41,965 bases of DNA, from assembly GCA_023511675.1 (NCBI GenBank), contig JAIMBC010000013.1, forward strand, positions 1 through 41,965. The letters are read 5' to 3'. Under the pieces are notes generated by a model, which did not search any database, was not told the origin of the DNA, and saw nothing but the letters and a program-made list of their open reading frames with translations. Positions 21,421 through 24,623 of the stretch are shown piece by piece (the stretch's first letter is position 1; every line of letters starts with the position of its first letter). This DNA is from Pirellulales bacterium. Lineage in GTDB: Bacteria; Planctomycetota; Planctomycetia; Pirellulales; JAIMBC01. The translations under genes were made by a program, and so were the position numbers.

Positions 21421-21795
21421 ATGCCGCGCTACTCTGCGCTGATCGCGGCGGCGGTGCTCTGTGGATGCACACGCTCGCCAGCCCCTGTCGATGCCGGCAC
21501 AGGGCCCAACGCTCCCCGCAAGCCGGCGGCATCGAGCGAACTGCCGGGCGGGTCAGGCCCCGCCCAGCCCACGTTGGTTCAAGTGGTGCTGGATGTGCCC
21601 GGTATGCACTGACCGGTGGGTTGAGCACCCAAGGTGCAGAATGCACTGGAACCGCTGCCGGGTGTAGCGGAGGTTGAGGTGAACGTGTCAAGTGGCGAGG
21701 CCAGGTTGCGGGTGAATGCCAGCGAGTTTGACCCCCAGCAGGCCATCGCCGCGCTGGCCGAAGCCGGCTATGAAGGTGCCCGTGTAAAGGAATAG
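21421..21795 (+). CDS. HMA-domain lipoprotein with two in-frame UGA (putative selenoprotein)
   Basis: Read with both TGA codons (21610-21612 and 21622-21624) as selenocysteine, the frame gives 124 aa ending at a TAG. The N-terminus is a lipoprotein signal (ALIAAAVLCGC, lipid on Cys16), then a Pro/Ala/Ser linker, then a heavy-metal-associated fold of the MerP/CopZ type: strand LVQVVLDVPGM, metal loop GMH-U-PVG-U, helix APKVQNALEPLPGV, strands AEVEVNVSSGEARLRV, helix FDPQQAIAALAEAGYEGA. The UGAs at residues 64 and 68 replace the metal-binding cysteines of the GMxC motif; spacing is UxxxU rather than CxxC. Codon use stays normal after the UGAs, and the next gene starts 9 nt downstream. TGA is an ordinary stop in neighbouring genes, so the code is not reassigned. 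The protein probably binds a soft metal or does redox chemistry at the envelope (inference). Confidence 0.85.
21629..21649 (+). promoter_or_regulatory. Candidate bacterial SECIS hairpin A
   Basis: CCA-(AG bulge)-GTGCA, loop GAA, TGCAC-TGG: eight base pairs with a 2-nt bulge and a loop that starts with G. The loop G (21639) is 26 nt after the first UGA and 14 nt after the second. It recalls the apical stem of the E. coli fdhF SECIS (GGU-U-GCA). Confidence 0.5.
21652..21670 (+). promoter_or_regulatory. Candidate bacterial SECIS hairpin B
   Basis: CCGCT pairs with AGCGG around a 9-nt loop that begins with G (21657). That G lies 32 nt after the second UGA, inside the usual spacing range for bacterial SECIS elements. 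Confidence 0.35.
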
Positions 21796-21804
21796 CCGCA
21801 CGCC

Positions 21805-22239
21805 ATGCTGTTGCCCAGGTATTCTCTCCGCCACGTGTTGGCGGCGACGGTGGTGCTGTCGCTGGTGTTCCTCGCGGCCGCACAGGCCGCACGAGGAGAG
21901 GCCTGGGCGACAGGCGTCACCGTGGCGGTGGCAACAGTGGTGCTGTCGCTAGGTGTGTATGTCCTGACCTTTCTGGCAATCTGGGTATTCGGTGTGCCGT
22001 ACCAGATGTGGTGGCAGCGGCGCAAGGGCATGAGTCCGTTCGAGGAATTGCCTGAGCCGCTGCTGGCCGGACGTGGGCAAGTGCGTCCCCTGTCCCCCCC
22101 CGGGGCAGCATCGGCTGCCAGTGCCGCGGGGCACACCGGCAGCAAGGCCGCCGTCCGGCCCAACAAGTTGCCAGCCGCACGGCCAGAGGCGGAGGGGGCG
22201 CACATCGGCAAGGAAGGCACTCAGGATACGCTCCCATGA
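21805..22239 (+). CDS. Small two-helix membrane protein
   Basis: A 144-aa protein with two N-terminal membrane helices (LAATVVLSLVFLAAAQA and VAVATVVLSLGVYVLTFLAIW) followed by the short motif VPYQMWWQRRKGMSPFEELP and a Pro/Ala-rich, probably disordered cytoplasmic tail. The ATG at 21805 lies 9 nt after the selenoprotein stop, with AAAGGA upstream inside that gene. Its last bases overlap the next start (ATGA at 22236-22239), so it is translationally coupled to it. I do not recognise a function; the context suggests a membrane partner of the ABC system. Confidence 0.75.
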   Translation: MLLPRYSLRHVLAATVVLSLVFLAAAQAARGEAWATGVTVAVATVVLSLGVYVLTFLAIWVFGVPYQMWWQRRKGMSPFEELPEPLLAGRGQVRPLSPPGAASAASAAGHTGSKAAVRPNKLPAARPEAEGAHIGKEGTQDTLP

Positions 22240-24623
22240 AAACGTGCATCCTGCCTGACGCCGCAGAGCGCCTTGTTGGCCGCATGGTTGTGCTGGCCGC
22301 GTGGCTTGCCGCCCTCTGCTGGGGAGCATGGCCGGTACGCAAGGCACAGGGTCAGAACGGTTATATTTCCTTCTCGTCGGGCAACGGCTTACAAATGCTC
22401 GTCGACATGAGCTGGACCGATGGCGCGGGCTATCGTCCCATCATGGTCGAGGTAACGGCCCCGGGGACGCCGGCCGCGGTCGACCGGCAGTTCTCCGTGC
22501 GGCTGATTGGGCGCTATCGGTACATGCCGGCTAGTCCCGCCATGGCGGTGACGGAGCATTTTGTCATCCCCGCGGGCAGCAATCAGGCCAGGGCCGTGCT
22601 CACCGTGCCGACTTACTTCATCTGGAATCAGCTCGATGTCGAGTTGTACGAGGATGGCGAGTATCTCGACAGGGTTTCGCAACGCGATGTGTTCTTCGGC
22701 ATGCAGAGTTTTGCCTGGGACCTGGGCCGGCCGCGGATATTGGTGGCCACCAGCAACTCTACCTGGGGGCCGCTGCCGAGCGTGCTGCTTCAGGGCCAGG
22801 CGGGCAACCAGAGCAGGCCCCCCATGCAGCCGCCCGCAGGGGGGGCGGTCTCCCCCAGACTGCTACTGCCGCCGGGGGGCGAGTCGGAGCAGATCATTCC
22901 CGGTCTGTGGCAGAGTTTGCAGTCTGCCCAAGCGGCGGTGGTGAGGCTGGAGAGCCTGCCGGAGCGATGGCAGCAATATTTGTCGTGCGATTTGGTGTGC
23001 ATCAGCCTGGACGATCTGTTGTTGCTGGCACGCTCTCACCCGCGGCGCTTGGAGGCGCTGTTGGGATGGGTGCATGCCGGGGGGACGATTGCCATCAGCG
23101 GGCTGACGGAAGGCTATTCGCGGCTGGCGGAGTTGGAGAGGGTACTGGGATTGCCCGCTGGGAGGGGCGGTGTGGAGGAATCGCGTGAGCGGGGCTGGCT
23201 GGCGGCGGACCCTGCTCTGCTGGCGCCGCTCGAAGAGGTGCTCAAGGCGATGGAGGCGCAGGGTATGCTGGGGCCGGACGGCAAGCCTGTGACGGACATG
23301 GGGGGGATGGGCGTGGGCAGCGGTTTGCCCTCGTCGGCCGGCTTTAGCAGCCAGCCGCCGATGGTGGGTGGCACGGGGGCCTTTGTGGGCGGTAGTATGT
23401 CCGGTCCGGCGGACGGACCGAGGTTGAGGCTACCGGAGGGCATGTCCGACCTTTCCTGGGTCAGGCGGCCGAAACCAGGAGAACGGCCCTTCATGCATCG
23501 GCGCTACGGGCTGGGAATCGTGGTGGGGCTGGCCAAGGAAGGGCCATTTAGCATTTCTCAGTTCGAGTGGCAGTGGCTATCCGACACACTGCAAACTCGC
23601 TTGAACTGGCCGATGCGTTATGGGTTGAACCTGCAAGGGGGCAATGCCGATTTCTGGCAGTTTTTGATACCTGGGGTGGGTCTGGTTCCGCGCTGGACGT
23701 TCTTGTTGCTGATCAGCGTGTTCGTGGTGGTGATTGGGCCGGTGAACTACTTCTGGCTGAAGCGGCAGCGGAAGTTGTATTTGCTTCCGGTACTGGTGCC
23801 GTCGGTGGCCTTGCTGGTGACGTTGGGCTTGTTTGTGTATTCGATGGTAGCAGATGGCCTGGGCGTGCGTGTGCGGGCGCGAAGCTTGACGGAGATTGAT
23901 CAGCGGGCGGGCCGCGTGACGACGTGGAGCCGGCTCTCGTACTATGCAGGGTTAGCGCCGTCTGGCGGATTGACATTTAGCGACGATGTGGCGTTGTTTC
24001 CCATCGAGCCGGAAGAGATGCCTGATAGCGGCGTGCGGCGGCAGCGCGAGCTGGAGTGGGCCGATGGCAAGCAATACCTGCGGCGAGGGTGGTTGGCCTC
24101 GCGTGTACCGACGCAGTACCTGAGCATGCGTACGCGAACCAGCAAGGCAGGGTTGCGCATCTTGGGGCCGTCTGGCAAGGGCCTGCGCGTGCGCAATGAG
24201 CTGGGAGCCAATGTGGAGCGATTGCTGGTGTGTGACGAGGGAGGCCTGGTTTATGCCGGTCAGCAGTTGGCTGAGGGAGCAGAGGCGGTGCTGGCGCCCG
24301 CCGATCTTCAGCAAGAGGCCGATGCCTTTCGTGCGGCGTGGAAGCGGTGTCCGCTAGAATATCCGACAGGCATCGATCCCAACTTCCGCGGCTTTGGCCC
24401 TCGGCGCTATTATACGGGCCGCTACGGGGGCATGGCCCTGCAGCAAGGCAACTTGCTGGAGACCGCACTGTTCCGCGTGCAACAGGGGTGCGCTGCCGGG
24501 GGGCAAGAATTGCTTACCGAGCCGCGCACCTATTTGGCGATCGCCGCCGGCCCCGCGGAAGTGGAGCTGGGGATGGACGTTGTGCCGGAGGCGAGCCTGT
24601 TCGTCATCCAGGGCAGGTGGTAG
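22236..24623 (+). CDS. Large membrane-anchored envelope protein, 795 aa
   Basis: The N-terminus has a signal sequence (MVVLAAWLAALCWGAWPV), then an extracytoplasmic region of about 440 residues starting with a beta-rich domain (YISFSSGNGLQMLVDMSW). A flexible Gly/Ser/Met linker occurs near residues 348-390. Two adjacent membrane helices follow (FLLLISVFVVVIGPVNYFW, then LPVLVPSVALLVTLGLFVYS; ~486-538), and a C-terminal domain of about 250 residues. I do not recognise a named family. The layout, a large exported domain plus membrane hairpin encoded directly before an ABC ATPase and permease, resembles auxiliary subunits of ABC-2 systems (GldG-like in arrangement, not shown by sequence). The start ATG overlaps the previous stop by 4 nt. 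Confidence 0.8.
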   Translation: MKTCILPDAAERLVGRMVVLAAWLAALCWGAWPVRKAQGQNGYISFSSGNGLQMLVDMSWTDGAGYRPIMVEVTAPGTPAAVDRQFSVRLIGRYRYMPASPAMAVTEHFVIPAGSNQARAVLTVPTYFIWNQLDVELYEDGEYLDRVSQRDVFFGMQSFAWDLGRPRILVATSNSTWGPLPSVLLQGQAGNQSRPPMQPPAGGAVSPRLLLPPGGESEQIIPGLWQSLQSAQAAVVRLESLPERWQQYLSCDLVCISLDDLLLLARSHPRRLEALLGWVHAGGTIAISGLTEGYSRLAELERVLGLPAGRGGVEESRERGWLAADPALLAPLEEVLKAMEAQGMLGPDGKPVTDMGGMGVGSGLPSSAGFSSQPPMVGGTGAFVGGSMSGPADGPRLRLPEGMSDLSWVRRPKPGERPFMHRRYGLGIVVGLAKEGPFSISQFEWQWLSDTLQTRLNWPMRYGLNLQGGNADFWQFLIPGVGLVPRWTFLLLISVFVVVIGPVNYFWLKRQRKLYLLPVLVPSVALLVTLGLFVYSMVADGLGVRVRARSLTEIDQRAGRVTTWSRLSYYAGLAPSGGLTFSDDVALFPIEPEEMPDSGVRRQRELEWADGKQYLRRGWLASRVPTQYLSMRTRTSKAGLRILGPSGKGLRVRNELGANVERLLVCDEGGLVYAGQQLAEGAEAVLAPADLQQEADAFRAAWKRCPLEYPTGIDPNFRGFGPRRYYTGRYGGMALQQGNLLETALFRVQQGCAAGGQELLTEPRTYLAIAAGPAEVELGMDVVPEASLFVIQGRW

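Follow-up and report, generated by a model that had tools for sequence, protein, structure and literature searches.

The window, i.e. the whole 41,965-nucleotide stretch of DNA analyzed, carries on its forward strand an open reading frame (21421–21795) interrupted only by TGA codons at positions 21610 and 21622; with these read as selenocysteine (Sec, U), the loop in which they lie is GMH-U-PVG-U. The frame, on the (+) strand, reads MPRYSALIAAAVLCGC...VPGMH-TGA-PVG-TGA-APKVQNAL...VKE-TAG. As claimed in an earlier note on this DNA, a 63-codon frame closes at the first TGA (21421–21612), a second in-frame TGA follows four codons on (21622–21624), and read-through ends at TAG (21793–21795), 9 nt short of the next ATG (21805). 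The following features were recognized:

21421–21795, (+) strand: gene for a putative double-Sec HMA lipoprotein, 124 aa plus TAG
21421–21468, (+) strand: signal peptide with a lipobox-like end (...AAAVLC-GC16), G15 and C16 being at least 90% conserved in a 31-member alignment
21469–21585, (+) strand: low-complexity Pro/Ala/Gly-rich tether, of low model confidence (pLDDT about 50–69)
21586–21774, (+) strand: HMA domain, residues 56–118 (PF00403, 43.6 bits; modelled MerP fold)
21610–21612, (+) strand: UGA1, predicted Sec64, first metal-ligand position (sequence; invariant Cys/Sec column)
21622–21624, (+) strand: UGA2, predicted Sec68, second metal-ligand position (sequence; invariant Cys/Sec column)
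21632–21648, (+) strand: hairpin H1, AGGUGC-AGAAU-GCACUG, loop 25 nt past UGA1 and 13 nt past UGA2
21653–21669, (+) strand: hairpin H2, CGCUGC-CGGGU-GUAGCG, loop 34 nt past UGA2 and 46 nt past UGA1
21793–21795, (+) strand: TAG, true stop of the read-through frame

At the sequence level the N-terminus has the features of a bacterial lipoprotein, i.e. a hydrophobic leader with a lipobox Cys at its end, and Cys16 is the residue predicted to be lipidated. The read-through protein matched the Pfam HMA model over 62 of 62 positions (43.6 bits; gathering cut-off 24.8), and no Pfam match was obtained with the 63-aa truncated product alone. AlphaFold2, supplied with the family alignment, returned an HMA fold (beta-alpha-beta-beta-alpha with a short last strand; pLDDT about 88–97 in this block), whose closest solved structure is MerP (1osd; TM-score of 0.90 over the target). 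The Pfam match and the confident model agree with the proposal that read-through restores the HMA fold.

In the 31-member alignment, residues 64 and 68 form invariant Cys/Sec columns, which places a TGA at both expected metal-binding Cys sites, as the earlier note had it. The GMxCxxC motif named there was recovered in part: the metal-ligand sites are present, but the classical spacing is not, since the window protein has UxxxU and the Cys homologues share CxxxC. Among the 124 codons, TGAs at residues 64 and 68 represent one of 7,626 possible pairs; a chance double nonsense is indeed unlikely, and the pair is found again in homologues from many genera.

A class-wide search covered 398 genomes, and its best-ranked matches were genes with two in-frame TGAs, all from other genera. 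Overall, at least 15 divergent homologues from several families, most of them in other planctomycetes, carry the TGA pair. The U...U motifs include MHUPVGU, MHUPAGU, MTUPVGU, MTUPKGU, MSUPISU, MDUAAGU and MVUGNSU, and almost all of these proteins have a lipoprotein leader. Single-Sec members always retain the first Sec (UPVGC, UPTGC, UVVGC, UAQGC, UAFGC, UPGSC), with one residue less between the ligands in the UxxC forms, and Cys-only members carry CPFGC, CEFAC, CEVMC or CEKSC. Thus, homologues with Cys aligned at both TGAs, for which the earlier note had proposed a search, do exist, alongside many with TGA at both.

An exact-pattern scan of GTDB genomes yielded 25 matches, seven of which are true relatives: three from Fuerstiella, one from Gemmataceae, one from a Planctomycetia MAG and two from MAGs labelled Actinomycetota. 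Most of the 25 were rejected as chance, their translations giving unrelated frames. The two MAGs labelled Actinomycetota (L045 and L047) carry UPMGU/UPVGU HMA genes with a degraded H2; their label may reflect mislabelled binning or transfer. With a covariance model of the region, additional UxxxU members were recovered from other classes within the phylum. Also in other planctomycete classes, two multi-Sec frames on (-) strands (L111 and L114) join UxxU HMA-like domain(s) to a thioredoxin-like domain; L114 has both UPMU and UMAU within one frame, and L111 has UMAU plus a predicted Sec in the thioredoxin part.

Among the relatives returned, the genome of the window is the sole member of its family, so that no close orthologue is available here. 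Downstream of UGA1, three Fuerstiella genomes show a dN/dS of 0.11–0.20, and their synonymous differences per site amount to 0–0.07 in the hairpin codons versus 0.39–0.61 beyond them. In the Fuerstiella gene (L072–L074), two UGAs appear to encode Sec and a last UGA is the real stop, past which the sequence is unconserved.

The machinery for Sec incorporation, which the earlier note had suggested looking for, is present in the genome of the window: SelA (549.9 bits; cut-off 267.9), an adjoining full-length SelB (378.9 bits; cut-off 242.25), SelD (275 bits; cut-off 125) and tRNA-Sec (66.4 bits; gathering cut-off 47; TCA anticodon by ARAGORN). SelD is part of an oxidoreductase fusion, and the protein so assigned also matches the model "fusion_not_SelD", below the cut-off of that model. 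In 30 planctomycete genomes, full-strength SelA was detected in 18 of 20 with a Sec form versus one of 10 with Cys forms only (Fisher p=3.5e-5). SelA was not detected in G225 and G331 (92% and 69% complete, respectively), relatives with TGA at both positions, perhaps because their assemblies are incomplete.

Hairpins H1 and H2 sit at fixed distances from the TGAs; the H2 loop is CGGGU in the window and CGUGG in the relatives. Pairing was compared with a null in which the protein was held constant and synonymous codons were drawn at random. In 25 Sec members the excess was z=6.0 for H1 and z=10.8 for H2, compared with 0.5 and -0.3, respectively, in 11 Cys homologues. In the 16 U...U members, 85.4% of cells are paired (81% for H1) versus 75.5% after shuffling and 24–54% when the positions are slid. 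Their covariation score of 0.306 versus 0.141 was reached by none of 500 shuffles, a count that is not a probability since the members are related; the slid control and the Cys-homologue control agree with this outcome, and four of the six H2 pairs have changed on both sides. The genes therefore carry conserved, covarying stem-loops after the UGAs, resembling the SECIS of bacterial selenoproteins. The folding energy of the window region is 3.45 sd lower than that of its shuffles, with H2 in the minimum-energy fold and an alternative stem in place of H1, and Rfam gave no match in the hairpin-bearing stretch. H2 is also kept in several single-UGA members (UxxC, UxxxC), some of which (G117, G248b, G178, G102) have both hairpins.

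Bacterial SECIS loops lie 16–37 nt from the UGA, and the distances from UGA2 to H1 (13 nt) and from UGA1 to H2 (46 nt) fall outside this range. Sec-type SelD genes (L092–L099; genomes G302, G248, G246, G225, G250, G374 and G099) likewise have two tandem hairpins with GGU loops after their UGA; in the second, an AGGU(U/C) loop lies some 31 nt past that codon. Tandem hairpins are possibly a planctomycete SECIS type common to SelD and the HMA gene. Based on the hairpin statistics, the fold of the window region and the SelD arrangement, H2 is likely the SelB site, and H1 may either contribute to the signal or serve as a conserved spacer.

No metal gene was found beside the copy in the window, and the neighbors of most relatives are also unrelated; the two genes that follow (21805–24623, encoding a membrane-like protein of 144 aa and a protein of 795 aa) gave no Pfam or NCBIfam match. 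A scan of neighbors for a common partner identified CusB/CusA-type pairs as the only recurring metal-linked ones, directly downstream of the HMA gene in five related loci (L067, L069, L079, L080 and L085). In L067 the CusB-like representative is an HlyD_D23 protein that contains a heavy-metal-binding domain, and the other is an RND pump of the AcrB/CusA type. In L069 (2641–3495), the CusB/CusA-type genes are immediately preceded by two HMA genes in tandem, one of the U...U form and one with Cys (CVAC). Elsewhere the HMA domain is fused to a MerT-like membrane part: L108 (910–2055, (-) strand), L113 (934–1683, (+) strand) and L107 ((-) strand). These fusions carry UPVGU, UPLGU or UPQSC and score below the NF033556 and NF045683 cut-offs; in L108 and L113, from other classes, it is a UxxxU domain that lies behind the MerT-like part.

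Taken together, the Sec machinery, the Cys equivalents, the conserved TGA pairs and the covarying SECIS-like hairpins support the putative double-Sec protein proposed in the earlier note. The gene very probably encodes a double selenoprotein and is neither a pseudogene nor the product of a code change, with Sec insertion itself predicted from sequence. A history of two nonsense changes (or sequencing errors) in a former Cys HMA gene could be envisaged, as TGA is one change from TGC or TGT and the assembly is fragmented (422 contigs). However, both TGAs reappear at these positions in independent genomes from many genera, the codons downstream of them are under purifying selection, and the RNA structure is limited to Sec members; the probability of such a history is practically negligible, and both the pseudogene and the sequencing error were rejected. 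Decoding of TGA as Cys or Trp under an altered code would restore the frame, but TGA ends the next gene of the window (21805–22239), in agreement with its description as a normal stop nearby, and closes the Fuerstiella homologues. Since tRNA-Sec, SelA and SelB are encoded in the genome and the hairpins fit site-specific recoding, a code change was rejected as highly improbable.

Two further alternatives accept a double selenoprotein. The Sec pair might serve as a redox center (diselenide/selenol) whose substrates would be thiols, peroxides or metal(loid)s: a diselenide could arise within UxxxU, Sec is found in the active sites of oxidoreductases (PMC1794560), and the planctomycete frames L111 and L114 combine Sec-HMA with thioredoxin-like domains. 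The HMA/MerP fold, which has its ligands at the metal positions, the CusB/CusA neighbors in five loci and the MerT fusions nevertheless point to metals, and we regard a redox center as rather unlikely. It is similarly doubtful that each UGA has a hairpin of its own (H1 for UGA1, H2 for UGA2) rather than sharing a single SelB hairpin. Two UGAs are accompanied by two hairpins, and the respective distances of 25 and 34 nt are both within the SECIS range; however, single-UGA members keep H2 or even both hairpins, and the SelD genes have two in tandem for a single UGA.

For the double selenoprotein with a shared signal, the following sequence of events can be proposed: (i) SelB and Sec-tRNA-Sec would decode two in-frame UGAs 12 nt apart, (ii) a conserved tandem-hairpin SECIS, located downstream within the coding sequence, would direct the decoding of both, (iii) the product would be a lipid-anchored, envelope-facing HMA protein with the metal loop GMH-Sec-P-V-G-Sec, (iv) its two selenolates would bind soft metal ions (Cu+, Ag+, Hg2+), and (v) like MerP or CusF, the protein would buffer the bound metal or pass it to a partner that acts in efflux or detoxification. 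The Sec pair may act as a diselenolate metal site or as a redox center. Compared with thiols, selenols are more acidic and selenolates softer, which would favor Cu+, Ag+ and Hg2+ and leave the site deprotonated. A metal-carrying role for the HMA lipoprotein appears moderately probable. The MerP-like fold, the CusB/CusA-type RND genes beside five relatives and the MerT fusions elsewhere suggest that it is most likely a membrane-anchored binder or chaperone of soft metals (Cu+/Hg2+/Ag+), both the metal and the partner being presumptive. Only tentatively can this be extended to a phylum-wide set of planctomycete seleno-metallochaperones with a UxxxU diselenolate site, some of them chaperones of Cus-type RND pumps, in which one tandem-hairpin SECIS decodes both UGAs with the same layout as in SelD, and H1 is a folded spacer setting the reach of SelB.

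Gene callers that treat UGA as a stop would truncate or miss the window gene and its relatives. Most known selenoproteins are redox enzymes, and to our knowledge few proteins have two Sec at a metal site. The series C...C, U...C, U...U, with hairpins limited to Sec members, constitutes a natural experiment on selenium in metal binding. The two hairpins in tandem could characterize a SECIS type of planctomycetes and explain how two nearby UGAs are decoded on one mRNA. The UxxxU HMA family is spread across the phylum, and the two conserved hairpins in its mRNA probably signal selenium insertion to the ribosome.

The known double-Sec proteins of HMA type belong to the UxxU family NF041115 and possibly also to NF045683 (PMC13188914, PMC9312934). 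NF041115 (UxxU_metal_bind, metal-binding (seleno)protein), whose UxxU members are described as "putative mercuric reductase" (PMC9312934, PMC13188914), shares with the window protein the HMA-type domain, Sec at both metal-ligand positions and the status of predicted selenoprotein. The window protein differs in its UxxxU motif, one residue longer, and adds a lipoprotein leader and the tandem-hairpin recoding signal; its score of 32 bits falls short of the cut-off (95), as do the scores of six relatives from the phylum, scanned singly. NF045683 (MerT/CopZ fusion-like heavy metal transport selenoprotein) has a comparable Sec-containing HMA/CopZ-like part, and in the planctomycete relatives L108 and L113 a UxxxU HMA domain is likewise joined to a MerT-like part. 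The window protein (19.4; cut-off 375) is set apart from NF045683 by score and by lacking the MerT part. The terms "UxxxU" and "lipoprotein" are absent from the text of the 2026 review, and "UxxxU" is absent from the literature searched, the coverage of which was incomplete. The window protein is accordingly classified as a UxxxU variant below the NF041115 and NF045683 cut-offs, its overlap with Haft and Tolstoy 2025 being judged by the table of the review.

MerP (TIGR02052; PDB 1osd, 1afi) is the best structural match and has the same periplasmic HMA fold, but it is soluble and carries CxxC, whereas the window protein is predicted to be lipid-anchored, has UxxxU, scores 27.3 bits (cut-off 92.55) and has no mer genes beside it. 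The likeness to CusF, the periplasmic chaperone of CusCBA, is a functional analogy only, i.e. a proposed small periplasmic metal donor, and rests on the CusB/CusA-type genes adjoining five relatives; CusF itself has an OB fold with Met/His/Trp ligands. The planctomycete HMA lipoproteins of the Cys form (CPFGC, CEFAC, CEVMC) resemble the window protein in layout, leader and spacing (CxxxC in their case); they have Cys in place of Sec, hairpins not above the null and, usually, a genome without SelA.
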